A stretch of DNA of 64,000 bases from the NCBI GenBank assembly GCA_016928305.1, contig JAFGKY010000114.1, forward strand, positions 1 to 64,000, in the 5' to 3' direction. Both the position numbers and the translations under genes were made by a program. Below, one piece after another: positions 8,176-47,042 of the stretch; the stretch's first letter is position 1; every line of letters starts with the position of its first letter. The DNA comes from Bacteroidales bacterium. Its GTDB lineage: Bacteria; Bacteroidota; Bacteroidia; Bacteroidales; UBA10428. Under the pieces are notes generated by a model. That model was not told where the DNA came from. It saw only the letters and a program-made list of their open reading frames with translations, and ran no database searches.

Positions 8176-8207
8176 ACCGGTATTATTTTACATTGTAAAA
8201 CGATTCA

Positions 8208-8239
8208 AAAAAATACGTCATCCGTTGTATCCAGACAAA
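8208..8239 (-). promoter_or_regulatory. Probable promoter of the giant adhesin gene
   Basis: Read on the minus strand, a TTTG is followed after 20 bases by TATTTTTT, one mismatch from the Bacteroidota -7 consensus TAnnTTTG. It lies about 33 bases upstream of the ATG. A short inverted repeat (TTTTAC-ATT-GTAAAA, 8186-8200) sits in the predicted leader and could be an operator or leader hairpin. Confidence 0.45.
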
Positions 8240-8419
8240 AAACAAATCCGGAAATAATTCAGAATTTGTTTCTGTCACCCCATCAGGGCAACACATGAAT
8301 TTATATTTGGTAAAAGTACAAAAATGATGTGTACAATGTAACCAGAATTTGATGAACGGCTCCGAATATAATTTGAATACCCGTTTTTACGGAAGGAAAA
8401 ACCTGCTTCAGGGAGAATA

Positions 8420-9640: not shown

Positions 9641-9644
9641 TGTG

Positions 9645-10715
9645 TTACTTTTGTTTTTTCGGACTGTAAAATGAAAAATAATAGCCTATCGATAAAGTGA
9701 AGGTATGAAGGCTGAAATCATCATCCTGGTATTTATACTGGCTTAATGCATAGGTATTTTCAAAACGCTTATCAGGCAGGACAATATTATTGATCCCGAA
9801 ATTATACTGAAGATCAACAGCCAGAAATCCCCTCGGGATTTTATAATGCAATCCCATTCCTGCTATTGCGCTATAATACAGGGAATTACGATAATCTTTC
9901 AGATCTGTGCTTTCACCTGTGGAAGGTTGTTTGTTAATGGTACTGGAGGGGGTACCGGAAATCGTAAGTATATAATTAACGGATGCTCCGGCACGGAGGA
10001 AATAAAGCAATTTTCCGTTGTTAATCTCATAGAGGACCGAAACAGGGAAAGTAATTTTTTGCAGTTTTTCCTTAAAGGTATAAGCTTCCTTGTATACTGT
10101 CCCGTCTTCTCTTGGAATCGTATTTTCATCCGTAAAAGAATATTGATGCTGGGCAAAATGCAGTTCCATGTTGAGCATCAGCCGTTTTCCAAGATACCTT
10201 CCTGCTCCTATGCCTGCCTGATATCCCGTACCGGAAGCATTGCTTAATTCGGTGGTATGTTTATCCAGCATTGAATAAGGTTTTATAATGCGGGGATTGG
10301 TAAGGTTGATCCCGGCTATCAGACCAAACGAAAATTCGGATGTAGTACGATACGATTCGAAGAGATGAATAAACTCCACCGGATCATTCGGCATGATCTC
10401 ATATTCGGGATATTTCTTCAGGAACTCAGTCATGGTCCTTTCTGCGTCAAACTGATTGTCATCGAACAGATAGGCCAATATAAGCAATTTGTAAGCTTCA
10501 ATTTTTTGTGTACGGGTAAAGCCTTCCTGCATGCAGGAAGCGAGCATTTTGGGAATTTCGTCGATCATACCGAGGTCATAAAGATTTCTGGCTTCCTGCA
10601 ATGTTTTAGAGCAATCTTTTTGTGCCTGCGAAGACAGGGAAATACCAATAAACAACAGTACCAACAGGTACCCGGAAAAGTTTTTTGTAAATGAGGATTT
10701 GGTTAACAGGGGCAT
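9645..10715 (-). CDS. PorT-like outer-membrane beta-barrel with N-terminal helical (TPR-like) domain
   Basis: This is a 356-residue protein with a signal peptide ending SSQAQ. Residues about 33-115 are helical and TPR-like (EARNLYDLGMIDEIPKML, then YKLLILAYLF and YPEYEIMPNDP), a segment seen in front of PorT-type barrels. Residues about 130-350 alternate amphipathic strands with aromatic ends (FGLIAGINL, LYFLRAGASVNY, FTLSIGYYFSFY), as expected for an 8-10-strand outer-membrane barrel. The gene lies 12 bases after the nSTAND gene and 4 bases before the lipoprotein gene. The helical part would face the periplasm and could contact the periplasmic part of the nSTAND protein; that contact is inference only. 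No enzymatic residues are visible. Confidence 0.82.
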   Translation of the reverse strand: MPLLTKSSFTKNFSGYLLVLLFIGISLSSQAQKDCSKTLQEARNLYDLGMIDEIPKMLASCMQEGFTRTQKIEAYKLLILAYLFDDNQFDAERTMTEFLKKYPEYEIMPNDPVEFIHLFESYRTTSEFSFGLIAGINLTNPRIIKPYSMLDKHTTELSNASGTGYQAGIGAGRYLGKRLMLNMELHFAQHQYSFTDENTIPREDGTVYKEAYTFKEKLQKITFPVSVLYEINNGKLLYFLRAGASVNYILTISGTPSSTINKQPSTGESTDLKDYRNSLYYSAIAGMGLHYKIPRGFLAVDLQYNFGINNIVLPDKRFENTYALSQYKYQDDDFSLHTFTLSIGYYFSFYSPKKQK

Positions 10716-10727
10716 TATCGTTGGGTA

Positions 10728-13700: not shown

Positions 13701-13853
13701 ATTTCTGGCCAGGTGTTCAAGTACGATTTCACTTTGCCCTTCCCTGCCAAAGAACAAATGACTCTCTTCCACGGTAAAAGGCCTTAATCCGGGGAAAGGA
13801 TTGGTAATGGATAAAGTTCCTGTTTTAATATGCCGTGTTACGTTTTCAGTCAT
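10728..13853 (-). CDS. Membrane-anchored nSTAND NTPase with C-terminal seven-bladed WD40 propeller
   Basis: This 1041-residue signalling ATPase opens with NPFPGLRPF (18-26) and FFGRE (34-38), the entry signature of nSTAND1 proteins. It has Walker A GASGSGKSS (58-66), Walker B LLIIDQFEEL (154-163), a sensor-like LTMRSDF (about 201-207) and the ISHESLMRIWDKL motif (about 396-409). One strong transmembrane helix lies at about 504-524, followed by a charged coiled coil to about 650 and seven WD40 blades (about 707-1025). The basic flank before the helix suggests a cytosolic NTPase and a periplasmic coiled coil and propeller. STAND proteins act as ligand-triggered oligomerising switches in conflict and signalling systems. 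The ATG overlaps the stop of the TIR gene (ATGA), indicating coupled expression. The trigger and target are unknown. Confidence 0.9.
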   Translation of the reverse strand: MTENVTRHIKTGTLSITNPFPGLRPFTVEESHLFFGREGQSEIVLEHLARNHFAAVTGASGSGKSSLIYCGLIPTLYGGFITNTGSYWKIIAVRPGNSPIENLAEALAKNEQHELVHDDVFIRKQILLSVLRRSSFGLVDAIRQMKIPENENILLIIDQFEELFRFKESRKDNTAINETEAYIKLLVNAIRQKGYPIYVVLTMRSDFIGECSQFQELTKLINKSNFLIPQMTRDDFREAVLGPLAVGGAEIDSQLLHHILNSIEDKSDQLPVLQHAMMRTWECWAHNNDPAVPIKMRDYEAAGKVENALSMHANEAFDELSDDGKRVCKSIFKCLTEKGTDNKGTRHPATVRYLAEIAKVPDASVIEVVERFRAKGRSFLTPVEGTPIDSETVIDISHESLMRIWDKLKTWVDEEFSSVQMYLRLAEASSQFQLGKTGLWRPPDLHLALNWKKTQNPTLAWAKKYNPAFEKVMVFLDSSEKKYLQEEQNKVKIQRLELNRTRKLAVYALLAAVVLSFLVVFALTQRQKAIEQSIEAQYQRDEAEYRKREADSLRILSDAKADRAEVEALLAQLIADSADREKAQALFQSQLFEKEKLLAVQQADAAAKRSERFLQEKTQAEQTAETAIQQKTQSDREKMLAAQKRMLSISQAMASKALQVEDKNLTGLLALQSYIFNRDYEGQVNQPDVYNALYAAMVAFNGKNYNGLHGHEGAIRSLAFVGNTNVFYSSGSDGKILRWDLTGNSKSFRTLIDNNFINRSLSISKNGRWLACGTTTTGIQLFNLNQSNTAPAYLEGHKGWIEALEFTSDNKGLFSSSTDNTIIYWDLIAGTNSLFVKADSKIRCLSVSPGGRFIVVGTDDGKVIRWNIDNTEKTILFQSDGNKIHAITFNSSGSKIAFGDKNGTMRIMDARTNTIIRTVAAHAAPIMDLEFSPDDRQIATASTDKSLRIWDANNLNNKPVVLKEHGDNFVLSVSFSPDGRFLVSSANQSDLSKTNYIYVWPVYADQMADILCSKLERNFTQREWENYVSPDIEYRKTCKNK

Positions 13854-15310
13854 TTTTTAATAATCTGATCCAGAAAATGATGTATGGCCGTATTGTTAAT
13901 TTCTTCATTCCAGATCACCGTGACATTGCGTAAAAATAATAAAGATTTATCAGTTGTTTTTTGCGGTGAAAAAATTCCGATGGCTTTAAAAGGTTTTTCT
14001 TTACCAAATCCGGGTACTTTGACAAGATCCCGTATTTTGCTGTTCAACCATTCCATGGAGCTATTACCTTTATAAATAATAACGGCATCCACTTTTTTTA
14101 ATGTTTTAACATGATCGGTAATGGACAAATATTCTTTTCCGGCAGTATCCGCGGTAATGATCCTGAATCCACGATTCTGAATGAGAGCAACATATTCCTG
14201 TAATTTTTGTTTTTCCGGCTCTTCGTGAAGGAAGTACAACGAATAGCCCGGTTCTGCATGAGTCTCATGTAAATTGGATATTTCATTCAATTTATTGTTC
14301 ACAAGGGTTTTGAACACCTCGAGGGGGGCTTCTATGATTTCAGTCCTTTCCTGCGTTTCATCACGCTTCATCCGTTTCAGGTACAGTGACTGTCGTTGAT
14401 CGGTGGTTTTCAGATCACTGGGTATCCAAATGATCTGGTAAGGTTTGTTTCGGTTTTCTTTGGATTCTATAAATTCTTTAACCACACGGGCTTGAAAATC
14501 AATCAATGAATATTTGGCATTTTTTATAAAATCTCCGTAAAAAGCTCCCATCATATGAATAGCCACCACGGATTGCTTCAGATTATCCTCCATAATAGTC
14601 CGGGCATGTTCGCTATCATTGGGTATTGTCAAAACCGGGAGTACTTTATATCCCAGATGCCGTAACTCACGTTTCAGAATGTCGCGGTTTTCCTGCTGAT
14701 CAAAACTGGTCTCTGCCAGAAAGATAGCATTGTTATCAGCGATGTGGCTTTTTGTCTTATTCTGGTCTTTTAGCTCATGCAGGGAGTTATAGATATCATA
14801 GGCCAGGTCAATCAGTTTTGACCAGAACTTATCATCCGGCAATTGATTCTCCTGTAGCTGAAAGCTAACGGGTTTTTTACTATAGCGGTTAATCTCAAAA
14901 AAATTATACTGGAGCTCGGATTTCAGTGAATCAGGTTCTTCACCTTCACGAAGGGGAAGAGTTAGTATTTTAAAGATCCTGTTGTTGGTTTTATCGGCTC
15001 CGGAAGCATGATACACGGCTTCATAAATGTTATTCAGTTCCTTTAAATAAGAATCTGATTTAACATCTTCAGGAGTAACAATCGCAACAAACACACCGGT
15101 TTTCTTAAAAATATCAACCGGATCTTCATTCATTAATTGCTGCCGGGTTCGCAAATCGTCATGCAAAAGTATGGTTGGTTTCTCATCAAATAAACGCTGC
15201 AATACAACATGCAAATGATGACAAAACTGCTGCACCCAGGGATTCACTTGCTGATTGTCCCGATTTGAAACGGCTTCGTAACTGATAAATATGTCATACT
15301 CAAAATTCAT
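13850..15310 (-). CDS. Protein with three TIR-like domains
   Basis: This is a 486-residue cytosolic protein with no signal peptide. Domain 1 (about 1-185) begins YDIFISY, the classic TIR strand A, and has VAIVTPEDVKSDSYLKEL, where Glu91 aligns with the catalytic glutamate of NAD-cleaving TIRs. Domain 2 (about 195-345) shows IFLAETSFD, RELRHLGYKVLP and AIHMMGAFYGDF, the pattern of DUF4062/TIR-like domains found beside nSTAND proteins. Domain 3 (about 350-486) has YSLYFLHEEPE, G(F)RIITAD, DAVIIYKGNSSMEW and KPFKAIGIF, a third TIR-like fold with a WLNSKIRDL helix. Its stop overlaps the nSTAND start by four bases, and it begins nine bases after the transporter-like gene. NADase activity is plausible for domain 1 only; domains 2 and 3 look like partner-binding folds. 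Confidence 0.82.
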   Translation of the reverse strand: MNFEYDIFISYEAVSNRDNQQVNPWVQQFCHHLHVVLQRLFDEKPTILLHDDLRTRQQLMNEDPVDIFKKTGVFVAIVTPEDVKSDSYLKELNNIYEAVYHASGADKTNNRIFKILTLPLREGEEPDSLKSELQYNFFEINRYSKKPVSFQLQENQLPDDKFWSKLIDLAYDIYNSLHELKDQNKTKSHIADNNAIFLAETSFDQQENRDILKRELRHLGYKVLPVLTIPNDSEHARTIMEDNLKQSVVAIHMMGAFYGDFIKNAKYSLIDFQARVVKEFIESKENRNKPYQIIWIPSDLKTTDQRQSLYLKRMKRDETQERTEIIEAPLEVFKTLVNNKLNEISNLHETHAEPGYSLYFLHEEPEKQKLQEYVALIQNRGFRIITADTAGKEYLSITDHVKTLKKVDAVIIYKGNSSMEWLNSKIRDLVKVPGFGKEKPFKAIGIFSPQKTTDKSLLFLRNVTVIWNEEINNTAIHHFLDQIIKK

Positions 15311-15319
15311 AGAATCGTT

Positions 15320-18300
15320 TTACGCTGGTGATTCTTCTATTAACTCAAATAACAACTTCCGGAAATCAAGGTTGTCAAAAGCCAGATTATTTAACATTTC
15401 CAGATCAAGGCTGAAAAAAGTAAGATCGGTAACAGCCCTGAAAGAAAATGCTTCATATACAGAGAAAATATCGCTGTAAATTATATCATTTTTACTAAAT
15501 GTAAATACTTTATTGGCGGAATTCCTGATTTCTACCTTTCCGGCCTGAATAACAATCAATGGATAATGAACATCATTTTTCTTGATCAGTAGCTGGTCAT
15601 TGGACGATAAATTATTCAAATCCAAATGCTTGGAAATTTCCAGTAATATATCTTCATGAATGGTTTTGCATTTTTTAACGTCCTTCAAAAACCGGATCCT
15701 GTCAATGAGCAGGTACGGGACTTTCCGGTTTGTAGCCCGTTCAAGGGAATTCTGTATTTCCAAAACCGCAGTGGGATCAAGGCGTGGGAAAACTGAATTT
15801 AGATATCCGGGTTCAATTTGTTCAATAACATACGAGGCCGATTCGCGGAATACTCTGTCGGGGTGAAATAACATAGCTATTAATTCCTGGCTGATATGAG
15901 GATGTCTTATCTTGAGCAGGCTGAAAATGGCACATACTTTTGTATAATAGGAAAGTGCATTGAAATCACGTATAATTATCTCATTAATAAGGTCTTCAGG
16001 ATCTTTTTTTTCGGTCTGGAAAAAATATTCAAGCTGCTTAACCCTGCTGCTGATTGAAAGATTCTCCACCACCGGGAAAAATACCTGTTTGATTTCCTCA
16101 TTTAAAATCTGATCAAGCATCTCGATGGCAAAACTGATATCGGTATCATTGCCTTCTGAAAGCAAATTACGGATATTATTGATTGAGGCAGTATTATAAG
16201 CCAACGCCAGTAATTGGAATAATGTGTCATAATTGTCTTTAATTTCCGATTCAAAGGCTTCATGCAGCAACGGAAATTTTCTTGATTTATTCAGTACCTG
16301 ATAAACAGAATAATTCCATGCCATAACAGTAATCAGGCGTATTATGCTGTTTAATATACGGTTTAGATTGGTTGGCGTAGCCTGGAATTTTGCTTCACGC
16401 AAGGAAAATATAGCCTGGCGTGTGAGATATCGGTTCTGGTTTTCTATTTTGGTCAACAGCAGATCAATGGCTTTAGGACTTCCGATTTTGCCATAGATTC
16501 TGATAATCCTTGAGAGCAAGGTGTTATCAGCATCCGGCTGAAGAAAGACCTGTTCAAGGCTCTCAAGAGCCGGGTCTCCGATTTTAATAAGGGCTTCAAA
16601 AGCAAACTGATAATAACCGGGTGTGGACAGATAGCCAATCAGGACATGACTGTGTTCGGCGCAATTCAGACGGGCCATCGCTCTGATTGCTGAAATTTTA
16701 ACTTCAGGTTCAATATCCCTTGAAAGGCTCATCACAATATCATTCCAATCCATTTTCCCCGATGTACCCGCAATTTCTGCTGCTAATATCCGGTCATTGA
16801 TATTATGGGAGTTTGATAAAAGGGTCAGTGTTTCCTTGTCTTGACCGAAGCTTAGCTTTGTTTCAAAGCGATTCATTATACGTCGAGCCAGTGTATGGGC
16901 TTCCTTATTCTGGGTCTCTTTGAGTGAGGGTGCTTCTTTTAATACCGGTAAAGCATTAAGTACAGAGTATTCATCGATCTTTTCAAGAAGGTACTTTTTT
17001 ATTTCAAAGGAGCTCGAAGCTAATAAACCGATCAGATGTTTCTCATGCTGTATAGGTTCAATACGTTCAAATAACGACAGGGCAGTTATCACCTTTTTTG
17101 GATCAACATGATTGATCAGGCTATGTGCCTTTTCATCTGTACTTGTTAATTCATGTTCTATCAGTCTTATATTTGATTTCAGCCGTCTGATCCCTTCAAT
17201 AAGAGCTTTTTGATAGGCTTTTATCAGTTTTATCGCAACCACAAGCCATGCAATTGAAAGCAGCAGTATTAAAAAGTTCTGAAACAACTCGTTTTTCAGT
17301 CCGATATAAAGAAATCCAAGCAAAAGAAGTCCTGCAATTCCTATTCCGGTCATTCGCAAGGTACCGTCAATACGGGGAATAATAACGTTATGGAAACGAA
17401 TATCGAGAGTACGGAACAAAACCTTTAATGAGGGCCCTTCAATGGCATCGCGTGTAATCTGATAACCTATTTTTACCATGGTGATCATAAGGAAAACATA
17501 GGTGAAACGGGTAAGGGTTGCCGATGATCCTCCCAGAAAGTTTACAAGAAGTAAAGCAATTGTTGCCAGTCCGATACCAGCCGGGATTAATACAAGGCTG
17601 TAAGGAGAATCATAAGAATATAGTATTTTGCGGATCAGGGATTTTTCAACAAAATAAACCACGATTATCATTACACCCATGAAAAAAGCCAGGAATTTCG
17701 AAAAACCAACCAGTTTGGGATATGTTAAACTGGCCAAAGAAATGAACTGAAAATGAACTAAATATGCAATAATAGTAGACAGAATGACAAAGGCTACTAA
17801 CAGCAGTGTATATCGTGTATAGAACATTTCAATAAATTTCGAGCGAATCGGATTCAATTTTTTCAGCGGATGATACAAAACCGGAGAAAAACGATGAACT
17901 ACATTCATGATTAGCTGCAATCCTGCTATAATTACCATAAAACCAATACATGCCAGCAACATCAGATCCCGATCCCATGTAAAATAGAACAAGGCAACCA
18001 GCAGAAAAGATGCCACTATCATACCACTTATCTGAAATGCTCTGATATAAGGATATAACCTGCGGCTTTGTGCCGGTGTGTATATGTTTCGCATCGATCG
18101 CCAGAACACCAGCAAGGTAATAACGGTAACCGGAAACATCAATGAAAGTGGTACCATAAGGGATATTCCATAGATCGAAACGCTGCTGATGGGTTCGTAA
18201 AAATACACTGCGCTAATTGCCAACAATATAACAAGATAATTTGCCAGGATAAAAAACCTGAAATCGAGCCGGTTTGAAAAGAATACATAAAATAACATAT

Positions 18301-18499
18301 AGACTAAGCCCAGGAATCCTGAAATAACAAGAGTAATAGGAATCATACTGCTGTTGTGTGATTGAAAGAAAATAACATGTGCACCGATATCAAATGTTAC
18401 CAGGAACGCTCCTGTAAAGAGGGCCTGTATGCAAGAAAGAAAAAAGATAAAAAATTCGCTGGCTTTCAAATCTGCTTTATTTGGGAACGGGATTTTCAT
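15320..18499 (-). CDS. MFS/nucleotide-translocase-like membrane protein fused to HEAT repeats and a degenerate cNMP-binding domain
   Basis: This 1059-residue first gene of the operon has about 10-12 transmembrane helices (residues 15-430), with an arrangement similar to MFS and ATP/ADP-translocase-like proteins. A charged helical linker (430-480) follows. Residues about 480-940 are HEAT-like alpha-helical repeats (for example EPEVKISAIRAMARL and DPALESLEQVF). The C-terminus (about 955-1059) resembles a cyclic-nucleotide-binding beta-roll (PLIVIQAGKVEIR, FRAVTDLTFFSL). The FGE phosphate-cassette residues are missing, so nucleotide binding is doubtful. Related MFS-HEAT-cNBD fusions occur in other Bacteroidota. 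Solute transport is not demonstrated; a membrane receptor or anchor for the TIR protein is an equal possibility. Spacing to the next gene is nine bases. Confidence 0.78.
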   Translation of the reverse strand: MKIPFPNKADLKASEFFIFFLSCIQALFTGAFLVTFDIGAHVIFFQSHNSSMIPITLVISGFLGLVYMLFYVFFSNRLDFRFFILANYLVILLAISAVYFYEPISSVSIYGISLMVPLSLMFPVTVITLLVFWRSMRNIYTPAQSRRLYPYIRAFQISGMIVASFLLVALFYFTWDRDLMLLACIGFMVIIAGLQLIMNVVHRFSPVLYHPLKKLNPIRSKFIEMFYTRYTLLLVAFVILSTIIAYLVHFQFISLASLTYPKLVGFSKFLAFFMGVMIIVVYFVEKSLIRKILYSYDSPYSLVLIPAGIGLATIALLLVNFLGGSSATLTRFTYVFLMITMVKIGYQITRDAIEGPSLKVLFRTLDIRFHNVIIPRIDGTLRMTGIGIAGLLLLGFLYIGLKNELFQNFLILLLSIAWLVVAIKLIKAYQKALIEGIRRLKSNIRLIEHELTSTDEKAHSLINHVDPKKVITALSLFERIEPIQHEKHLIGLLASSSFEIKKYLLEKIDEYSVLNALPVLKEAPSLKETQNKEAHTLARRIMNRFETKLSFGQDKETLTLLSNSHNINDRILAAEIAGTSGKMDWNDIVMSLSRDIEPEVKISAIRAMARLNCAEHSHVLIGYLSTPGYYQFAFEALIKIGDPALESLEQVFLQPDADNTLLSRIIRIYGKIGSPKAIDLLLTKIENQNRYLTRQAIFSLREAKFQATPTNLNRILNSIIRLITVMAWNYSVYQVLNKSRKFPLLHEAFESEIKDNYDTLFQLLALAYNTASINNIRNLLSEGNDTDISFAIEMLDQILNEEIKQVFFPVVENLSISSRVKQLEYFFQTEKKDPEDLINEIIIRDFNALSYYTKVCAIFSLLKIRHPHISQELIAMLFHPDRVFRESASYVIEQIEPGYLNSVFPRLDPTAVLEIQNSLERATNRKVPYLLIDRIRFLKDVKKCKTIHEDILLEISKHLDLNNLSSNDQLLIKKNDVHYPLIVIQAGKVEIRNSANKVFTFSKNDIIYSDIFSVYEAFSFRAVTDLTFFSLDLEMLNNLAFDNLDFRKLLFELIEESPA

Positions 18500-35935: not shown

Positions 35936-36056
35936 GGGAGGTAACAGGGTCTAAGAATGAGAAATGGTGGTGATCAGGATTTTCTATTTTAGAGAAATAA
36001 CCTTACATTTTCCAAGGATTGAAACAAGGAGTTTTTACTAAAAATTGCTTAATGCC

Positions 36057-37085
36057 ATGCGAAAGCAAAACCAGGAGATTACCGATAAGAATATCATTGA
36101 AGAAATACTGTCATTTTCAGCAATCTGCAGGATTGCCATGATGGATGACGATGTGCCCTATCTTTTACCCTTCAATTACGGTTATCACGATAACTGCATC
36201 TATATTCACTCTGCGCCTGAAGGCAAAAAGATCGACCTGATCCGGAAAAACAACAGGGTTTGTTTTGAGATCGAACAAACAGCCCGGATTATTAAGAGCG
36301 AGAAAGCATGCAAATGGGCAACTCTCTACCGTTCGGTTGTAGGTTATGGCAATGTGGAGATTATATCGGAATTCAATGAAAAGCAGAAAGGGCTCGAAAT
36401 TATCATGGCCCATAATGGGGCTATTGAAAATATGGAATTTGAACGAAAACAAATTGAAGCTGTCGTTTTACTGAAATTGAAGATCGATAAAATTACGGGT
36501 AAGCAATCCGGTAATTGGAACAAATACGAAAATGCAACCGATTATTCCGTTGAAACTGAAAGACTTTTTCTGAAGGAAATCACATGGGGTGATTTGGAAA
36601 ATATTTACAGGCTTCATACACTGCCCGAAACCGATGAATATAATACGCTGGGAATATTAAAAAATACCGAAGAGGCAAGAAATGTAATGCAACCCGCCAT
36701 TGAAGATAAATTCAACGATGTACGAAAAAAAATACTATGGACGGTTACAAGAAAAGACACGGGTGCTTTTATCGGGGAAGCCGGTATGAGCTTATCAGCC
36801 GACCGGTTTAAGCTGGGGGAGATATTTTACAATATCCTGCCGGAACAATGGAATAAAGGGTATGGCACTGAAACCGCCAGGGCGCTGATCAGATTTGGTT
36901 TTGAAAAACTGCATTTGCATAAGATTGAAGCCGGTGTGGCCACAGAAAATGTCCGGTCGATCAGGGTGCTTGAAAAAGCCGGCATGCAAAGAGAAGGACT
37001 GAGAAGGAAAATATTGCCGATCAGGGGGGTATGGAAAGACAATTATCATTATGCGATTGTTGAGGATGATCCGGTGCGTTACTAA
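36057..37085 (+). CDS. Fusion of pyridoxamine-oxidase-like flavin domain and GNAT acetyltransferase
   Basis: This 342-residue cytosolic protein has two domains. Residues about 1-145 resemble the NimA/PNPOx-like FMN-binding family (ICRIAMMDDDVPYLLPFNYGYHDNCIYIHSA, GKKIDLIRKNNRVCFEIE, SVVGYGNVEII). Residues about 170-340 form a RimJ/RimL-type GNAT domain (TERLFLKEITWGDLENIYRLH, NILPEQWNKGYGTETARALIRFGFEKLHLHKIEA, ENVRSIRVLEKAGMQREG). Each half is normally a separate protein; the fusion suggests linked flavin and acetyl-CoA chemistry, perhaps in detoxification. I use ATG 36057 rather than the TTG 12 bases upstream. Confidence 0.86.
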   Translation: MRKQNQEITDKNIIEEILSFSAICRIAMMDDDVPYLLPFNYGYHDNCIYIHSAPEGKKIDLIRKNNRVCFEIEQTARIIKSEKACKWATLYRSVVGYGNVEIISEFNEKQKGLEIIMAHNGAIENMEFERKQIEAVVLLKLKIDKITGKQSGNWNKYENATDYSVETERLFLKEITWGDLENIYRLHTLPETDEYNTLGILKNTEEARNVMQPAIEDKFNDVRKKILWTVTRKDTGAFIGEAGMSLSADRFKLGEIFYNILPEQWNKGYGTETARALIRFGFEKLHLHKIEAGVATENVRSIRVLEKAGMQREGLRRKILPIRGVWKDNYHYAIVEDDPVRY

Positions 37086-37307: not shown

Positions 37308-39401
37308 CTATTTGGAAGGATCAAACATCCACAAATCAATGCAGTCAGCTTTCAAGTCTTCCGAACCATAATCCGATATCCCTCCGCAGATAAAACCTTT
37401 ACCACCACTTTCGCATCCACCTGCTGCAAATCTTTTCTGACCCGGGAAACCGATTGCGGTCCATATATCTTTATCAGGATCATATTTGTAAAACTCCTGT
37501 GTTCCCTCATTAAACCAACCCAAACCGGTGTATAAATATCCGTTAAGCGAAAATCCGATTATGTTTTCAGTCGATCCGGGCATAGGTGCTTTTATTCTCC
37601 AGGTGTTAGTCTCAGGGTTATATTGCCGCAATTCCGGAGAGTACTGAGGTTTTATAATATATCCAAATTGGTTCACGCTGAAACCGTATAAAATACTGAT
37701 TTCTGAGTATTGATTATACGGAAGTTTGCCAATGGAATCCCAACTGTCCGATTTATAGTCGTAGCGCCATAGATCCAGGAACTTCTCGAAGGCATAATCC
37801 TCAATGCCCAGGCCGCCACCAATGTATGCTCTGTCACCTATAACAAAACCGAAAGCACCATACCTTTTCTTTTTTGAAAAACTTGATTTCTGTGTCCACT
37901 GGTTTTCTTCCGGGCTATATTCCCAGACTTCCTCTGAATAATTGTTATTCCCGGCTTGACCAAAGCAGACATAAATTCTGCTGTTGATAACAAATGAAGT
38001 GGTTAATACCCTTCCATGATCCGGAAAACTCGCCTTTTCTGTCCATTGATTCAATTCAGGATCAAATTCCCACAAATCAGCAAGAAGAGTTGTATTATCC
38101 GGTACACCAAGTAATTCTGTATTTCCAAGACCAAAATACAGTTTTCCTTGTAATCCATGGGCAATGGGATATACCCTTGGAGAGCCCGGAAAATCTGCCA
38201 TTCTTGTCCAACGGCTTCGGTATTCAAAAGTAAAGCAGGATTGCGATAAAGCTGTTTGTCCGGCAACCTCAACGATGATCCTGAAAGAATCAATAACCGA
38301 TACTTCCGGAAGGCCTATCAAATCACCAGGTATAAGTATCGTAAGCTCATTTCTGCTTGCATTGAGGACTTCAGCTCTTTTATCTTTAAAAAAGACTGCA
38401 TTACAGGATGGTATATGGCTGAAATTAACGCCGGTAATAGTAACCGTTATGCCTGTATTCTCTGCCTTGGCAGGAGAAAAAGATGAAATGACCGGAGGAA
38501 GTAAACTGAACTTTTCCTGAAACGACAGTTTAAAGGTTCCTAAGTTTAATGAGACAACCGGATCCGGTGATTGAATATCGGAAGGTACGACGCATTTAAT
38601 TAAATCATCTTTTGCCTCGATAATTTCCGCAATGCTGTTATTAAAGTTGACTTTGAAATAATCATGGTTACAGGGAAGATTTTTACCAGTGATTATGATT
38701 GTGTCTCCAAATGTTCCTGTTTTTGGGTAATAGTCTGTTAAAGATGTTTTCTGCAATGCAAATAATTGTTTTGCCCGAGCTGTATTACCGAATATTGAAA
38801 CAGAAATGATGCTGCTATCTTTTTGCAGCCTTTCAGGTACAAGAACTGTAAGTGTTGTACCAGTGGATCTCAATACACGTGCAACAAGGGTATCAAATTT
38901 AACTGAGTTGGATTGTCCCAGGCTGAACCCGTTGCCATAGATAGTCACTGAATCCAGTATTTTGCCGGTCAATGGTGAGAAATCCTTAATAAATGGAGCA
39001 CTACTGCCCATACTGTGAAAAGATACCTGTTTCCCATACACCATATAACGATCGGAATGTATAAATGCTTTAACGAAATAATCTTTCCCCTTTTTCAGGG
39101 TAGTTTTAATAACAAGGCTGAATTTACCGGTAGATGCATTCTCCTGAATTACAGCTTTCTCGGCATATTCGAATGAAGGTTCTTCGATTGTATCCCAGAC
39201 AAATCCGTATTCTTCAATAATTGCATTTCCCTTAAAGGTTATTTCGGCATTGAAGGTGGCACCATCATCCGAAATCTTTGTTACTTCCAGGGTGTTCACC
39301 CTTGGGAAATCCCTTGAGGTAATCTCTTCTTTCTGACAATCGATAATGAACAGAAAGCTTAAGAAAAGGATCGCTGGAAAATTATAATAGGCTTTTTTCA
39401 T
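37308..39401 (-). CDS. TIG/kelch surface lipoprotein, cassette copy 2
   Basis: This 697-residue protein (ATG 39401; the ORF-track TTG 39419 would overlap the upstream gene) has a lipoprotein-like signal ending LFIIDC. Asp before the Cys is unusual, so lipidation is less certain. A fibronectin-like N-terminal part is followed by about three IPT/TIG domains (for example IKDFSPLTGKILDSVTIYG, YYPKTGTFGDTIIITG and ISSFSPAKAENTGITVTITG, about 135-390). Six kelch motifs (about 400-690: WTRMADFPG, WTEKASFPD, WTQKSSFSK, ...FICGGI) form a six-bladed propeller. It is likely surface-exposed and binds a ligand. It follows an outer-membrane barrel gene by eight bases and is paralogous to the gene at 40691. 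Confidence 0.85.
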   Translation of the reverse strand: MKKAYYNFPAILFLSFLFIIDCQKEEITSRDFPRVNTLEVTKISDDGATFNAEITFKGNAIIEEYGFVWDTIEEPSFEYAEKAVIQENASTGKFSLVIKTTLKKGKDYFVKAFIHSDRYMVYGKQVSFHSMGSSAPFIKDFSPLTGKILDSVTIYGNGFSLGQSNSVKFDTLVARVLRSTGTTLTVLVPERLQKDSSIISVSIFGNTARAKQLFALQKTSLTDYYPKTGTFGDTIIITGKNLPCNHDYFKVNFNNSIAEIIEAKDDLIKCVVPSDIQSPDPVVSLNLGTFKLSFQEKFSLLPPVISSFSPAKAENTGITVTITGVNFSHIPSCNAVFFKDKRAEVLNASRNELTILIPGDLIGLPEVSVIDSFRIIVEVAGQTALSQSCFTFEYRSRWTRMADFPGSPRVYPIAHGLQGKLYFGLGNTELLGVPDNTTLLADLWEFDPELNQWTEKASFPDHGRVLTTSFVINSRIYVCFGQAGNNNYSEEVWEYSPEENQWTQKSSFSKKKRYGAFGFVIGDRAYIGGGLGIEDYAFEKFLDLWRYDYKSDSWDSIGKLPYNQYSEISILYGFSVNQFGYIIKPQYSPELRQYNPETNTWRIKAPMPGSTENIIGFSLNGYLYTGLGWFNEGTQEFYKYDPDKDIWTAIGFPGQKRFAAGGCESGGKGFICGGISDYGSEDLKADCIDLWMFDPSK

Positions 39402-39409
39402 TGTATGGT

Positions 39410-40630
39410 TTAAAAACAAACACCGCCTTTTATTCCTATATTCTGTATTCTTGAAAAGGTTTCTGTCCTTTTTTCTGAAATGTAATTATAGTGAAGGGCG
39501 AAAAAAATATATCGTTTATTATTCCAGTAATAGTTTACCCCAAGGGTACCACTTCCACAAATTGAAATCTTATCCAGCGGAATGTCATGAAACTCATTCG
39601 TGTATACCATGTCTTTTAGTTCAAGTTCAGAAACACGTCTTGAGCTGTTCTTTATAATTGAATGTATGCCTCCTCCAATGGATGCTGTGGGCCTGAATTT
39701 TCCTTTCGGGTATGTATATTTCAAAGAAATCAGATTTTTAAGAAACAAGGCATGAATATGATAATCGATATGCTCAATAAAAGCTGTTTCCGTGATCTTG
39801 TGATAGCCATAGAAATAATATTTCCCGGCCTCGGCCTCGAATTGCAAGGTAATTTTTTCATTAACACTGGGAATCATTGTATTAAGTATGAGTCCAAGAG
39901 AAGGATTAAAGCTGTATTCAAAATCGAGTGGGGAATATGTTTCATCCATAAAATATCTAATCCAAGAAATATTGTAACCTACAAATGGAGTAATTCTTAT
40001 CGTGATTAACGATAACTTCTTTTCATAAACAATGCATTCTTCATCCTTGCAAATGTATGAATGGTAATCCTTTACTATGTTTATCAAGGATTTGTGTGTT
40101 AATTTCGCATTATTGACTTTCCTTTGGATTTCATTGCAGTCACGAAAAGTGGCTTTCAGAATTCCAATATGACGGTTGGATCTCATAACAAACTTTCGCT
40201 CGTCTTCAAGAAAAATTTCCTTTTCTTCGTTGGTCAGTTCAAGAATTCTTCCATCATCTTTCTCAATCAGGTAATGATCACTCCAGGAATCTTTATAATA
40301 ATATAAATTTGCTATTCCATCCACCAGAAATTCAATGAATCTGGTAATACTTAGGTTATTTATCTGAATTGTCCTGGATATGTAGTATTTACCTTCAATA
40401 AACCAATAAGCCCTGATATCGCCGGGTTTATAAGTTACAATTTTCGATTTTTCATCTGCTTTGTACACGCATGAATTTGAGTTTTTTATATCTCCCCTGT
40501 AATCGATCAGCCCACTCAGGGTATCACCCGAATTTGAAATAATATAACCGGGTTTAAAATTGGATTGTGAGAAGGATTTCTGTAAGGTGAGAAATGCAAT
40601 CAGGATAAAAACTATTCTTATTGTCCTCAT
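39410..40630 (-). CDS. Outer-membrane beta-barrel protein, cassette copy 2
   Basis: This 406-residue protein has a signal peptide ending SFSQ. An N-terminal periplasmic domain (about 25-180: GYIISNSGDTLSGLID, IVTYKPGDIRAYWF, ANLYYYKDSWSDHYLIEK) precedes barrel strands (about 205-400, ITPFVGYNISWIRYF, YFFALHYNYI) that end in an aromatic, KGGVCF, typical of barrel insertion signals. It is paralogous to the protein at 42396-43553, sharing the N-terminal domain and gene order. The pair with the TIG/kelch lipoprotein suggests a two-part surface complex. No transport substrate can be named. Confidence 0.82.
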   Translation of the reverse strand: MRTIRIVFILIAFLTLQKSFSQSNFKPGYIISNSGDTLSGLIDYRGDIKNSNSCVYKADEKSKIVTYKPGDIRAYWFIEGKYYISRTIQINNLSITRFIEFLVDGIANLYYYKDSWSDHYLIEKDDGRILELTNEEKEIFLEDERKFVMRSNRHIGILKATFRDCNEIQRKVNNAKLTHKSLINIVKDYHSYICKDEECIVYEKKLSLITIRITPFVGYNISWIRYFMDETYSPLDFEYSFNPSLGLILNTMIPSVNEKITLQFEAEAGKYYFYGYHKITETAFIEHIDYHIHALFLKNLISLKYTYPKGKFRPTASIGGGIHSIIKNSSRRVSELELKDMVYTNEFHDIPLDKISICGSGTLGVNYYWNNKRYIFFALHYNYISEKRTETFSRIQNIGIKGGVCF

Positions 40631-40690
40631 CTTTTGTTATACATTATGTAATTAGTAGGATTATTAATTCTCAAACGATGTTTGTAAATA

Positions 40691-42391
40691 TTACGGAATA
40701 AAATAGTAGAAAAAACCTTCATCATTATTATAAACTCCTTGACTTCCTATGTATCCTTTGTTGTCTATAACAAATAAGATATCAGGGAAAAAATATCCGG
40801 GAATAACATACAGTTTTAGCCAAAAATCGGTTTCGGGATCATATTCATATATATTGCTTACTTCATTCTCGTATAGCCAGGCGTAACCTTTTAAATCATT
40901 TGAAAATAAGAGATGCCAACTATTTTCAGGACAATTATCTTTTTGCATCCAGGTATCATTCAGACTGTCATATTCCCATAAATCTCCATAATAGTTAGAT
41001 ATATAGGCTTTTGTATTAATAACGAACGAATTAAAAAGCACTGTAGTAATTGCGGGACAAACATTAAGTTCTGTCCAGGAATCATCATCAGGATTATACC
41101 TCCAGACATAGTTATAAATTCCAACCACAACAAATCCCTTGCCATCAATGGAAAATCCTGTGCAGGTATAAAAAATTGCCGGCAGATTTTTCAGTTGTTT
41201 CCATGTGTCTGTTAACGGATCGTATTCCCACATGTCCTGTTTGTAATAGGGATCATTCCCTCCACCTGCTCCAATGTATGCTTTTTCATTTATGATGAAA
41301 ACAAAAGGATTACTGCGATAGTTGCCTGGGAAATTGCTTTTTTGATTCCATGAATCATTAATGGAATTATATTGATACAGGGAATTATCGAGTAAAACAT
41401 AGCCGTATTGATTAATACTGAATGAACAGGATACATAAAAATAATCATTAAGGGGCAGGTCAGCCAAAGAAACTTTCCACCAGCTTTGTTTCATGGTGAA
41501 GCCTTGCGTATAGCCATAATGCTTTTCACCGAAGGAAACAGAAATATTGACCATTTCATCCGATTGATCTATTTTACCGGTGGGAGGGACAAAAACAATC
41601 ATTTTATTTTCCTCTATGGAATAAACGGTTGCCAGACTATTACCAAAGCTTATTTCACAAGGTTGTCCATTGACAATCAGGTACTCTCCTTCAATAGTCA
41701 CAAGATCTCCCGGTTTACCTTCCATGGGATACACCGATACTATTTTAGGTCCCAGAATGGTATAATGGCTTTCAGATGTATCGGATTTTCCGAGTACGCT
41801 TACAATGATCGGATAATCTCCGTAATTACTCACTTGCGGTGATGTAATTATAATCTCATTTGTGTCCGACCTCACCACGGTGCAGGGTATATCTCCCAGT
41901 CTCACCAGGTTTCTTTCATTCAGGCGACTGAAATTCCTTCCGGTTATGGTAATTTCTGTGCCATCAAGTCCGGAAGCCGGAGAAAAGGAAAGAATCTCAG
42001 GAGGTGAACTGCCTTTACTCAGGAATGATTCTTCATTTGCATAAACAAGGTATGCAGAGGACCGGATATATGCTCTTACATAATACGTAACATCCTTTTC
42101 CAGATCGGAGGTAATTTTGCATGTATAGGGCCCGGTTGCAGGCATATAGTCCAATTCCGCTTTAAAATCATCTACCGTCGGTGAATGATCAATACTCCAT
42201 ACAAAACCGCATTCCAGGATACTGTAATCGCCAACATTTGTTATGGTGGCATTCAGGACTGCCCCTGAATTGTCGGTAACAATATTCTGTGTATAAAGAA
42301 TGGGGAAATCTTTTGACCTGTTGTCCGATCCATTTTCACAGCCTATTACCAGGCAGGCGGTTAAGGAAACCAGGAACAATTGATTTTTCAT
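40691..42391 (-). CDS. TIG/kelch surface lipoprotein, cassette copy 1
   Basis: This 566-residue lipoprotein has a clean lipobox LVIGC (Cys18). It has a fibronectin-like segment, two IPT/TIG domains (ILSFSPASGLDGTEITITG and IVSVYPMEGKPGDLVTIEG, about 130-300) and kelch-like blades (about 320-560: WNQKSNFPG, WKQLKNLPA, WTELNVCPA, WMQKDNCPE, FWLKLYVIPG). It lies five bases after the barrel gene, in the same order as the copy downstream. It has one TIG domain fewer than its paralog. It probably binds a ligand or scaffold at the cell surface. Confidence 0.86.
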   Translation of the reverse strand: MKNQLFLVSLTACLVIGCENGSDNRSKDFPILYTQNIVTDNSGAVLNATITNVGDYSILECGFVWSIDHSPTVDDFKAELDYMPATGPYTCKITSDLEKDVTYYVRAYIRSSAYLVYANEESFLSKGSSPPEILSFSPASGLDGTEITITGRNFSRLNERNLVRLGDIPCTVVRSDTNEIIITSPQVSNYGDYPIIVSVLGKSDTSESHYTILGPKIVSVYPMEGKPGDLVTIEGEYLIVNGQPCEISFGNSLATVYSIEENKMIVFVPPTGKIDQSDEMVNISVSFGEKHYGYTQGFTMKQSWWKVSLADLPLNDYFYVSCSFSINQYGYVLLDNSLYQYNSINDSWNQKSNFPGNYRSNPFVFIINEKAYIGAGGGNDPYYKQDMWEYDPLTDTWKQLKNLPAIFYTCTGFSIDGKGFVVVGIYNYVWRYNPDDDSWTELNVCPAITTVLFNSFVINTKAYISNYYGDLWEYDSLNDTWMQKDNCPENSWHLLFSNDLKGYAWLYENEVSNIYEYDPETDFWLKLYVIPGYFFPDILFVIDNKGYIGSQGVYNNDEGFFYYFIP

Positions 42392-42395
42392 AGGA

Positions 42396-43553
42396 TCAGA
42401 AGTTAACGCCGGATAAGATGAAGAATGAATTTAGGAGAACTAGCTCCCGGCTGAAAATACTGTATGTTTTTGAATACCGGATCTCAACAGAAATGGAATT
42501 CTTCGGGCTTAAATTGAATTGCATTCCGAAACCTGCTGTCAATCCGGCCTGATGCCTTATGGTTAACAGATCATAAGCAGGCTTGTTTAATTCAATAATA
42601 TTCTGGTTGAAAATGGCTGTATATCCGTGCGAATCACTTTTCAGATGAAATGAATAGATACCACCGGCACTGACAAAAGGACGGTAATTGATAAAAGGAC
42701 AGGTATACCGGAAAAAAACAGGCAGGTTCAAATAATTTGTTTCGACGGTCAGGTCAACATCACTGTATTCGCTTCGCCTGTTGTATGAAAATGCATTCCG
42801 TGCATAATAAAGCTCAGCATGCAATGAAAAATAACTTACCGAAACCGGCTTATCGATAAACAAGCCGATAATAAAACCTCCGTCGTATTTAAAATCCAGT
42901 TGCTGTGAATAATCTTCGATTGTAATATCATAAATTGAACGGTAAATATATTCCGGAGAAGCGGATATCCGGGTTATTCCGTATCCTGCAATTGCACCGT
43001 ACCGGAATCGGGGGAAAGGTTTATGTCGGCAGTTGTTGTACCAGGTAGCATATTTTTGCATTGAAAGCTTGGTATAGGTTACATATTTCAGTTGATCGGA
43101 CATGAATTTGCATTCACCTGAATAAGTCATAAGTGATTCATGAAAACCTGTGGTTTTGTTCAGACTGTCATTCTTACTTATTTCAATCATTTGTCCGCTT
43201 TCTTTTTCAAGAAAGAATTTGCTCCCGTTTTTATCCTTATAGTAATACAGAGTTAAGTTTCCTTTACTTAATCTTTCAAGGAAAACCTTTTTTTCAACCT
43301 GGTCTAACGTAATAATCCTTGCAATATATACCTTATCATCTTTAAAACCGTATTCGTCAACTTCATAAGGGGTATAGGTTATTATTCTGTCCTTCACTTT
43401 TATCTGGCAAGACCTGGCATTTTGCACGAGTCCTCCATCAAGCATTTGAACGCCAACTGTCATGGTGCTATCCTTGACATAATAGCCTTTTTGTCCGACG
43501 ATGACAGTTGAAGGTATGAAAAGCAGTAACAGAGATATTAATCTATTGCTCAT
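42396..43553 (-). CDS. Outer-membrane beta-barrel protein, cassette copy 1
   Basis: This 385-residue protein begins MSNRLISLLLLFIPSTVIVGQ with a signal peptide. The N-terminal domain (about 22-165: GYYVKDSTMTVGVQM, RIITYTPYEVDEYGF, LTLYYYKDKNGSKFFLEKESGQMIEI) matches the copy at 39410. The C-terminal barrel (about 180-385) ends in GVNF, an aromatic terminus suited to outer-membrane insertion. It is the first gene of the duplicated cassette. A TATATTTG element lies 77 bases upstream. Confidence 0.82.
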   Translation of the reverse strand: MSNRLISLLLLFIPSTVIVGQKGYYVKDSTMTVGVQMLDGGLVQNARSCQIKVKDRIITYTPYEVDEYGFKDDKVYIARIITLDQVEKKVFLERLSKGNLTLYYYKDKNGSKFFLEKESGQMIEISKNDSLNKTTGFHESLMTYSGECKFMSDQLKYVTYTKLSMQKYATWYNNCRHKPFPRFRYGAIAGYGITRISASPEYIYRSIYDITIEDYSQQLDFKYDGGFIIGLFIDKPVSVSYFSLHAELYYARNAFSYNRRSEYSDVDLTVETNYLNLPVFFRYTCPFINYRPFVSAGGIYSFHLKSDSHGYTAIFNQNIIELNKPAYDLLTIRHQAGLTAGFGMQFNLSPKNSISVEIRYSKTYSIFSRELVLLNSFFILSGVNF

Positions 43554-43629: not shown

Positions 43630-43637
43630 CAAATATA
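43630..43637 (-). promoter_or_regulatory. Candidate -7 element of the barrel/kelch cassettes
   Basis: TATATTTG on the minus strand matches the consensus exactly. No TTG at the expected upstream spacing was found, so only the -7 box is supported. It would serve the four-gene run ending at 37308. Confidence 0.4.
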
Positions 43638-43674: not shown

Positions 43675-45183
43675 TTAATGAGGTTCAGTTTTGCTCATTC
43701 GTGTTGCTCCCGACAAAGCATCAATATCCACACTTTCATCAAAGGAGACCGGTCTGGCCGGAGTCCGGGTAATCAAATTCTTGATTTGCCGGGGTGTCAG
43801 TTCGATTTTATCACTTATAAATTCAGGCCGGTTAAAATTCAAAACATAATCGTTATAAAATTCCGGATCTTTCTGTGGTAAAACAAAAGGCTTGTCAATC
43901 CCTCCGGTCTTATTTATGTGACAGAACCACGGTCGTGAAAAGGTATTATCATCGCGTTTACTTACGAACATGATCCATCGCCCGTTTTCCGACCATACAG
44001 GATAACTCTCCACATAATCTGAATTAACAGGCAGGTTGTGATATTCTTTCGATTCCAGGTCCATGATATAAATGTCGGATTCTTTATTATAAATGGTAAA
44101 GTATCCGTAATCGGCCATGCAGAAGAGTAAGTACCGCCCATCGGGTGATACACGGGGGAAGGATATACTTTTGCCGGTTTCCCTGGCCGTAAGCAATGTA
44201 TCGGATTTTCCCCATTTCATAGTTTGGTAGTCAAACGGGATTCGCAACAGATCGTATTGAATGTTCCTGTAATCGGTTGAATCAAAACCGTTTCCTGAAA
44301 TGTAAAATAAATACCGGCCATCGGGTGACCAGGATGGTACGTTTTCCAGCCTTTTTGTTGATAAAGCAGGACATGTTGTGATCATGTTTCTTTCCACATC
44401 AAGCAATATAATATCTGATGCCCTGTCCTGGACAACCTCATATTTATCGGTCTGTGCAAAAAACTGTTGATGGATCAGATTCACGGAATAAGCAATGTAT
44501 TTCCCCGAAGGGTGCCATGAGGGATAAACTCCTCCCGACATGGTATAGGTTGTTTTTGTATTGACAAACGACAATTCCCCGTTCCCACTGATCACCGTGC
44601 CGGGGAATGTTTTGCGCATGTGCAGTGACATTTGTCCGGGATTGAAATTGGCAAACGAATGACAATTCATGCAATTATTTCTGGCAATTGTGTTGATCAT
44701 AACCGGTGATTCATCGAAATTTTCGAGGCATCGCTGGTAAATACCCATTTCACTCCATAATATGTTCGCGGGAGCAATTTTCCTGTAAACAATATAAGGT
44801 GAAATGGAATCGGATGAAACACGAAGGATTATCGGATCATATCGCTTCCATTGTCCTTTATTCCCGGCATATAGATGAAATAAAATGCTTGTATCTTTAT
44901 TCATTGCTAACATATGCTTCCATTGGTTAAGCGGAATGTTGAAACCTCCCTTCCTTGAACGGAGAAAAAGATCTTTGCCTTGTGTGGTTTCTATTTTCAG
45001 GATGAATACCCTGCCTTTTTCTTTTAGGGTGAAATTCAACGGTGCGATATTGCATGGAATAGTAATGCCGGCATAATCAGGACTGATTTTTGGCATCACG
45101 TCAATTCTTTCTGCTTCGGGCAGATGGTTGCAGGAAAATAATAAGGGTAGTATCCATAAAAAGAATAAGCTTCTTTTTGTCAT
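43675..45183 (-). CDS. PD40 propeller lipoprotein with a c-type haem motif
   Basis: This 502-residue envelope lipoprotein has lipobox LLFSC (Cys18). A CMNCH motif at 171-175 is a canonical CxxCH haem-attachment site, suggesting a mono-haem cytochrome. The rest holds TolB-like PD40 blades (YPSWHPSGKYIAYS, NVPSWSPDGRYLFYIS, SFPRVSPDGRYLLFCM, SYPVWSENGRWIMFVS). A Met or His sixth ligand cannot be assigned by eye. The propeller plus haem layout recurs in Bacteroidota but has no known substrate. It starts 3 bases after a large DUF6057 membrane protein, so the two are co-expressed and may form an envelope electron-transfer or sensing unit. Confidence 0.85.
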   Translation of the reverse strand: MTKRSLFFLWILPLLFSCNHLPEAERIDVMPKISPDYAGITIPCNIAPLNFTLKEKGRVFILKIETTQGKDLFLRSRKGGFNIPLNQWKHMLAMNKDTSILFHLYAGNKGQWKRYDPIILRVSSDSISPYIVYRKIAPANILWSEMGIYQRCLENFDESPVMINTIARNNCMNCHSFANFNPGQMSLHMRKTFPGTVISGNGELSFVNTKTTYTMSGGVYPSWHPSGKYIAYSVNLIHQQFFAQTDKYEVVQDRASDIILLDVERNMITTCPALSTKRLENVPSWSPDGRYLFYISGNGFDSTDYRNIQYDLLRIPFDYQTMKWGKSDTLLTARETGKSISFPRVSPDGRYLLFCMADYGYFTIYNKESDIYIMDLESKEYHNLPVNSDYVESYPVWSENGRWIMFVSKRDDNTFSRPWFCHINKTGGIDKPFVLPQKDPEFYNDYVLNFNRPEFISDKIELTPRQIKNLITRTPARPVSFDESVDIDALSGATRMSKTEPH

Positions 45184-45186
45184 TGG

Positions 45187-47022
45187 CTAATATTTTTCAC
45201 TGTATGATCCAGGATTTTTAACGGATGATTTCAACGGTCTGCTGTATAAGTAATAATACCAGTACGTCTGTCTGAACTTATTCAGTGATCTTTTGGCAGC
45301 CGACGGATTACCTTTATACCGGCCAAAAAGAATACCTGAAAATGCATTAAAATTTTGTTGTATGGCTTCGTCTATGGTGTACCCCAACGCATCATTGAAA
45401 ACAGTAATTCCTTTTGTAGCCTGATACATCAAAATTGCTTCCTGACAAGACCGGGGGAGTTTGGCATAGCCCATGCTTTTAAACCGGGGAAGAGATGCAA
45501 GCACCTCACCGGGCCTGTTGGCTAATAAATTGTAAGCGATTAAATATTCAAATGCCATTTTATTCGAAAGACTGTCAGTGGCAAGAAATTTCAGATTATC
45601 GTATGGATCTTCGATAGCTGTGAAAAAATCAGTTGCAGGATTCATTTGCCTGAGCCTCCCAAGCTCGGGATCTTTCTTCACGCAATCGTCGCAATACAAA
45701 TACCTGCGATACTTTTTAGCCCATGCCCTTGTAACGGATGAGGATTCGAGGATATTCAGATACTTTTCTGACGTTTTATATTGTCCGGTTATTATATAAG
45801 ATTTTACAAGACGTTCAAGTATGCGGGGCTGTATGCCGAAAACCGTCAATGCTTCGTTGGCCCAATGCCTCGCTTCATTTATCAATCCCATATCATAGTA
45901 AATATCGCTCAGGGGTATGGTAATTGAAGCGTCCGTCGGGCTTTGAACGATCAATGCTTCCTGGCGCCAGACCTGAGGATAAAAAAACATGTAATCCAGT
46001 ATTATTCCTTTCTGGTACAGGGCTCTGTTTACCAACGAAAGAACGGGCTTTTTCTGGACAATCTCAATATCAGCTGTGTGCAGCAATTCATCCCATTTAT
46101 TTTCGTATGCCAACCGGTCTATACGGATTAATATTTTATAATCCGGCTTATAAGTTATTTTAAAAGTAACAAAAAACAGTAAAGGCAGGAATACTATAAA
46201 ATTAATATAGATCAGCCGTTGTGTGTCGCCACGAGCATTCAGCAGCATTCCGGAGTAATAACTGAGCAACAAAACAATAAAAATAAGTCCGGATGTTGCA
46301 TTGATGATGACCGGTATTATTTCTCTGCCTCCTGTTATAAAATGACCACTGTATGCTTCCCACAGGGATGAATATCGCTGGTCAGAAAGGTACCAAAGAA
46401 CGGGGATAGAAAGAACAATGGCAAGGAACAGAATAGCCTTTACATATTTTTTTTTGTATACGGGTAATGCCAGTGTACCCGCCAGAAACACAGTAAGACC
46501 AGCGCTATCGGTTAAATAATAAACAAGAAAGGCCAGCCATAAATAGGCTATATATTGATAGGCTTTTTTCAGGTTAAGTTTTTGGTATATCACTGCAAAG
46601 CCAAGAGCAACCGTAAAAGCAACAGAGATATCCGGAGTAAACTGGTAACTTCCATGTCCTGCAATCAAAGGAATTACTGCTAACGTAAGGGGAACAGGAA
46701 TGAAAGCATCCGGAATACGTTCCTTAATTAATTGGTATACGAAGAAACACCAGATGCCAGTTTGCAGTAAAACCAGCAATATTGCAACGATTGTATTTCC
46801 ATAAAACTGAAAAATAAAAAGTCCGGTATAATCCGAAATTCCTCCGGCATACGAAAGGTAATATTTGAAAAAACTGAAATTGTTACCAAAGAATGGCTGG
46901 TGCATATGACAGGCAAGGCTCGGATCGACTTTTACAAAGAAATATACCAGCAATGTGACAGCGATAAAAAAGAAAAATGTATTTCCAGCGTTGACAGGTA
47001 TCTTTTTTAGCATAGCCGGCAT
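45187..47022 (-). CDS. DUF6057 family membrane protein
   Basis: From ATG 47022 this protein has 611 residues. The N-terminal part has about ten to twelve helices (to about residue 290). The C-terminal 310 residues are soluble and helical, TPR-like (YDMGLINEARHWANEAL, LVKSYIITGQYKTSEKYLNILE), and would face the periplasm. This layout matches DUF6057, which has no known activity. The ORF-track start is a TTG at 47034 that lies too close to the -7 box at 47043. The downstream haem/PD40 lipoprotein is only three bases away. A role in assembling or reading envelope complexes is inferred. Confidence 0.8.
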   Translation of the reverse strand: MPAMLKKIPVNAGNTFFFFIAVTLLVYFFVKVDPSLACHMHQPFFGNNFSFFKYYLSYAGGISDYTGLFIFQFYGNTIVAILLVLLQTGIWCFFVYQLIKERIPDAFIPVPLTLAVIPLIAGHGSYQFTPDISVAFTVALGFAVIYQKLNLKKAYQYIAYLWLAFLVYYLTDSAGLTVFLAGTLALPVYKKKYVKAILFLAIVLSIPVLWYLSDQRYSSLWEAYSGHFITGGREIIPVIINATSGLIFIVLLLSYYSGMLLNARGDTQRLIYINFIVFLPLLFFVTFKITYKPDYKILIRIDRLAYENKWDELLHTADIEIVQKKPVLSLVNRALYQKGIILDYMFFYPQVWRQEALIVQSPTDASITIPLSDIYYDMGLINEARHWANEALTVFGIQPRILERLVKSYIITGQYKTSEKYLNILESSSVTRAWAKKYRRYLYCDDCVKKDPELGRLRQMNPATDFFTAIEDPYDNLKFLATDSLSNKMAFEYLIAYNLLANRPGEVLASLPRFKSMGYAKLPRSCQEAILMYQATKGITVFNDALGYTIDEAIQQNFNAFSGILFGRYKGNPSAAKRSLNKFRQTYWYYYLYSRPLKSSVKNPGSYSEKY

Positions 47023-47042
47023 AGATAACAACAATTAAGTAA

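Follow-up and report, generated by a model that had tools for sequence, protein, structure and literature searches.

The window analysed here is a stretch of 64,000 nucleotides from a Bacteroidales contig, and it carries a row of four genes arranged head to tail on the minus strand. In 5ʹ to 3ʹ order, they encode barrel A (42396..43553), lipoprotein A (40691..42391), barrel B (39410..40630), and lipoprotein B (37308..39401). All four are intact open reading frames, with 4, 60, and 8 nt between successive genes. Lipoprotein B starts with the ATG at 39401, rather than a TTG further upstream. A sequence-only reading of this DNA had described two consecutive copies of an outer-membrane barrel followed by a TIG/kelch lipoprotein, with common order and spacing, and this description was confirmed by the ORFs and by Pfam matches.

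The consensus of the Bacteroidota -7 box is TAnnTTTG. One match to this consensus, TATATTTG, was located at 43630..43637 on the minus strand, 84 nt upstream of barrel A, while no -7 box was found within 200 nt upstream of barrel B. Because a box precedes barrel A and none precedes barrel B, this consensus match suggests that the four genes might be transcribed as one unit. Upstream of barrel A on the same strand are a gene for a PD40/TolB-like propeller lipoprotein whose sequence contains a heme-type motif, CMNCH (43675-45183), and then a gene for a DUF6057 protein (45187-47034). These two genes were not obvious at the other cassettes whose neighbours were listed, thus they were kept out of the unit. 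Elsewhere in the window, a minus-strand cluster (1810-18499) encodes a 2121-aa PKD protein with a C-terminal signal for type IX secretion, together with an OMP_b-brl_2 barrel, an NTPase of the nSTAND1-WD40 type, and a HEAT-repeat protein, and a plus-strand ORF (36045-37085) fuses pyridoxamine-phosphate-oxidase-like and GNAT acetyltransferase domains.

Barrel A consists of a signal peptide, an unnamed N-terminal domain (approximately residues 22-176), and a predicted eight-stranded membrane barrel (approximately residues 184-385). The barrel was matched by OMP_b-brl_2 of Pfam with an E-value of 1.3e-15. The AlphaFold2 model had a mean pLDDT of 88 and showed eight long strands from residue 184 onward, and Foldseek matched it to Ail, OmpX, OmpA, and OmpW (best E 2e-7, probability 1.0). 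Barrel B had no Pfam barrel match of its own, and was identified as a diverged relative of barrel A by hhalign and BLASTP. The N-terminal part is a separate domain of about 100 residues that is common to all barrels of the family, and no Pfam family worth naming was found for it in 34 members. The usual topology of small barrels places such an N-terminal domain in the periplasm, where we would also expect it here. At another locus (L122:4872-12211), four barrels of this N-domain family were found in a row on the same strand without a lipoprotein partner; therefore, the barrel family also multiplies in tandem alone.

Lipoprotein A has the lipobox LVIGC, and is composed of an FN3-like domain, two TIG domains, and a kelch propeller, as assigned with Pfam, AlphaFold2, and Foldseek. 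Lipoprotein B, in which the cysteine is followed by QKEEI, has an FN3-like domain, three TIG domains, and a kelch propeller according to Pfam, BLASTP to lipoprotein A, and the domain map. The barrel, TIG, and kelch parts had been recognized in the sequence-only reading, which missed the FN3-like domain and the N-terminal domain of the barrel. It had also pointed to an extra TIG domain in one lipoprotein. The difference of three versus two is real, but it is nothing special to this locus, as the number in the family ranges from 0 to 6 (none in L120, four in L172, and six in L129). In the family, a short motif after the cysteine, mostly ending in Tyr-Pro or Phe-Pro, precedes the FN3-like domain, which carries a YGFVW-like motif and is followed by the TIG domains and then the kelch propeller. 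The AlphaFold2 model of lipoprotein A had a mean pLDDT of 85.9, and its Foldseek matches were kelch propellers and the Bacteroides structures 3HRP and 3TC9. Judging by its W motifs and strands, we read the propeller as probably six-bladed.

The FN-like domain was always kept, even when TIG or kelch domains were lost. One lipoprotein consists of the FN-like domain and one TIG domain (L056), another of the FN-like domain only (L076), and a third of the FN-like domain followed by a propeller remnant (L074), although these losses might partly be sequencing errors in fragmented assemblies. Since it is the constant part of the lipoprotein, the FN-like domain would be the part most likely to touch the barrel. 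Lipoprotein B exceeded the Pfam cut-off for NANM (60.8 versus 45 bits). An enzymatic reading of the propeller was rejected, as the protein fell far short of what NCBIfam requires for NanM and the mutarotases related to it, and the NANM match was read as probable general kelch similarity.

The optimum of the lipoprotein export signal in Capnocytophaga is C-X-K-(D/E)2-X (PMC5080379). Lipoprotein B fits it exactly (CQKEEI), while the fit of lipoprotein A (CENGSD) is weak and inexact. The shorter pattern C-x-K-(D/E) occurred in 7 of the 13 lipoproteins of the family, compared with 4 of 55 others from the same loci (p = 4e-4, a value that overstates independence, as the family members are related to each other). 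At least two acidic residues at positions +2 to +6 were found in 85% of the family lipoproteins versus 27% of the others. The family lipoproteins are thus predicted from their sequences to be exported to the cell surface.

When the two copies were compared, the barrels were homologous end to end with 22-23% identity. BLASTP gave an E-value of 1e-15 over the span of the N-terminal domain, and hhalign with small alignments of each type gave a probability of 100% and an E-value of 3.1e-40 over 366 columns. The N-terminal domain, with 32% identity, was the better conserved half, versus 20% in the membrane barrel. The lipoproteins shared 24-29% identity (BLASTP E 1e-39), with 34% in the FN-like domain, 29% in TIG1, 27% in TIG2, and 28% in the kelch propeller. 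The suggestion that the copies had diverged thus holds, and BLASTP and hhalign show that they do not come from unrelated families.

The nearest relatives of each copy were, however, found in other genomes. Barrel A was closest to the barrels of L069 and L067, in other genomes of the order (38% each), and barrel B to that of L074 (33%), compared with 22% between A and B. The nearest FN-like domains were from L069 for lipoprotein A (45%) and from L074 for lipoprotein B (46%), compared with 37% between A and B. Trees agreed loosely with these identities, with few branches well supported. A recent tandem duplication was rejected, because each copy is nearer to pairs of other genomes than to its neighbour. 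The cassettes are therefore best read, from these identities, as old and diverged paralogues; the earlier word "duplicated" is misleading in that it suggests a local duplication. A tandem arrangement of two pairs was found only in the window; in L068, two pairs converge on each other inside a stretch of 8 kb. Mantel tests for co-divergence of barrel and lipoprotein were not significant (p 0.06-0.34).

To see how widely the cassette is distributed, whole genomes of the order, the family, and the phylum were searched, and we counted the loci from these searches and from gene maps. A family barrel beside an FN-headed lipoprotein was found at 21 loci in at least 17 genomes, mostly of Bacteroidales, with unrelated flanks. 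The partners are usually separated by a few nt, and at 18 of these loci the barrel immediately precedes the lipoprotein in the same orientation (window A, window B, L056, L067, two in L068, L069, L070, L071, L074, L076, L080, L085, L118, L120, L121, L166, and L171). One gene lies between the partners in L073, and the partners are divergent in L129 and L172. Two loci are from outside the order, L121 from the same class and L120 from elsewhere in the phylum. In the reciprocal scan of the order, 16 of 20 lipoproteins matched from the N-terminus adjoined a family barrel, the others being those of G268, G247, G195, and G119. Many type-B barrels and a few FN-headed lipoproteins occur without a partner. 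No regulator, anti-sigma factor, or signalling gene recurred among the listed neighbours of the cassette. At both divergent loci (L129:5973-11448 and L172:1430-7399), the lipoprotein is of a long-TIG form; the next gene in L129 encodes a DUF3857/transglutaminase-like protein, and the gene that follows the lipoprotein in L172 begins in a similar way.

An extended form was found in G002, G075, G195, G262, G268, and G271, where the FN-headed lipoprotein is followed by a predicted outer-membrane protein of about 230 residues and then by a WD40 propeller of about 320-336 residues with a signal-peptide-like start (L166:4148-9057, L068:829-5833, L073:6976-12925, L167:3123-6261, L169:5560-9316, and L179:4907-7785). 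The gene of about 230 residues has no Pfam family. It was present in only 6 of 295 genomes, always behind an FN-headed lipoprotein, with a weak match in G195 (E 9e-11), and it was not found in the genome of the window. A family barrel is also present upstream of the extended form in G002, G075, and G271.

We favour, with some confidence, the explanation that each pair makes one surface complex for binding, adhesion, or display, with the barrel as its anchor. The two-part surface unit proposed in the sequence-only reading is supported by the recurrent co-location in many genomes and by the export signature of the lipoproteins. The barrel would be a closed eight-stranded anchor in the outer membrane, and its N-terminal domain would lie on the periplasmic side. 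The partner lipoprotein would be exported to the surface and dock on the barrel, most likely via its lipid-proximal FN-like domain, so that the TIG stalk, which varies in length, and the kelch propeller could be held outward. The propeller may bind a macromolecule or another surface protein, for adhesion, capture, or surface-layer-like display; no ligand was suggested by any match. The genome would thus maintain two diverged versions next to each other, and these probably differ in their partners or ligands.

A unit for nutrient capture and import, in which the propeller lipoprotein caps and feeds a channel as in SusC/SusD or BtuB/BtuG, appears distinctly unlikely. Surface lipoproteins with transporter-capping propellers are known in the phylum, such as BtuG (PMC10404256), and TIG-plus-propeller proteins of Bacteroides have been named auxiliary nutrient-binding proteins (3TC9). 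The barrel, however, matches OmpX, OmpA, and OmpW instead of TonB-dependent transporters, and no plug, SusC, or SusD domain was found in the four genes and the two upstream genes. A closed eight-stranded barrel without a plug is a poor importer. With eight predicted strands and neither a plug nor a TonB-dependent-transporter domain, import is unlikely, and the earlier suggestion of it is not borne out for the same reason. A surface-layer or fibre unit, with the lipoprotein polymerising or tiling the surface like BT1927 of Bacteroides thetaiotaomicron and the barrel as its anchor, is unlikely but would agree with the two-part layout of BT1926/BT1927 (PMC12578637) and with TIG arrays that vary in length. 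Against it, there was no BT1926-family match among those listed, there was neither an inverted repeat of the BT1927 kind nor invertible-promoter arms upstream, and the lipoproteins are smaller than the 100-kDa BT1927.

It is quite improbable that the cassette is an envelope sensor, in which the propeller binds outside and the periplasmic domain of the barrel passes the state inward. The conservation of the N-terminal domain above that of the membrane barrel, and its presence in all family barrels, would fit such a role, but no signalling gene recurs beside the cassette and eight-stranded barrels have no obvious signal route. We regard as very improbable that the genes are chance neighbours or selfishly co-transferred without forming a complex. 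The lack of significant co-variation between barrel and lipoprotein distances and the occurrence of both partners alone in places speak for it, but the 21 shared loci have differing flanks and are spread over different families, reaching a further class of the phylum, and adjacency is kept even in the divergent arrangements. Beyond the surface complex that we favour for each pair, we raise tentatively a broader and rather doubtful idea. The FN-headed lipoproteins could define an unnamed Bacteroidota family of surface complexes with swappable parts, namely the eight-stranded barrel with its N-domain, a variable TIG stalk, a kelch head, and sometimes another small barrel together with a WD40 propeller that is secreted. 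In this reading, the periplasmic domain of the N-domain barrel would connect the head outside with the inside of the cell.

Complexes of barrels and lipoproteins are a hallmark of the surface of this phylum, and most of those that are well described are importers. The cassette is a recurrent type with clear module boundaries that is not importer-like, and no description of it was found in our literature search, in which no paper on TIG with kelch in Bacteroidetes appeared. With its defined set of genes, one can ask how surface lipoproteins get anchored and what a small closed barrel contributes to them.

The nearest functional parallel would be BT1926/BT1927, a predicted eight-stranded barrel and an S-layer surface lipoprotein in one operon, in which the barrel is thought to be an anchor or secretion partner of the lipoprotein (PMC12578637). 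The likeness is one of layout, a small barrel with a large surface lipoprotein, seen here in predicted fold, adjacency, and export signature, and does not imply kinship. For the BT1926 family, no NCBIfam match was obtained up to E 10, nor for 34 members up to E 0.01, with the presence of its model in the library unconfirmed. Phase variation of the BT1927 sort was rejected, because the published inverted repeat had no match in the window even when as many as 3 mismatches were allowed, and no suitable inverted-repeat arms were found upstream of barrel A. With BtuB/BtuG and like pairs (PMC10404256), the cassette shares a propeller lipoprotein encoded with an outer-membrane barrel, but the barrel here is eight-stranded without a plug, hence not of the TonB-dependent-transporter kind. 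The absence of TonB-dependent-transporter, plug, and SusD/RagB domains from the Pfam and NCBIfam matches of the four genes and the two upstream ones, together with the eight strands, also agrees with the earlier view that the cassette is distinct from SusC/SusD. BamG of the Bacteroidota BAM accessory set (BamG-K) is a 14-stranded FadL-like barrel, unlike the eight-stranded barrel here, and the P. gingivalis BAM chain 9hjm_F was matched weakly (sequence E 0.029; Foldseek probability 0.33). The membrane part resembles OmpX, Ail, OmpA, and OmpW, but the family barrels additionally have an unnamed domain at the N-terminus, and their gene is linked to one for a lipoprotein. When lipoprotein A was searched with Foldseek, the Bacteroides lipoproteins with TIG and NHL propellers (3HRP; 3TC9/BT_3476) ranked among the top matches, with low overall TM-scores (0.28-0.44). 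They share the order of TIG and then beta-propeller, whereas the cassette lipoproteins have a kelch instead of an NHL propeller, an FN-like N-terminal domain, and a small barrel as partner.
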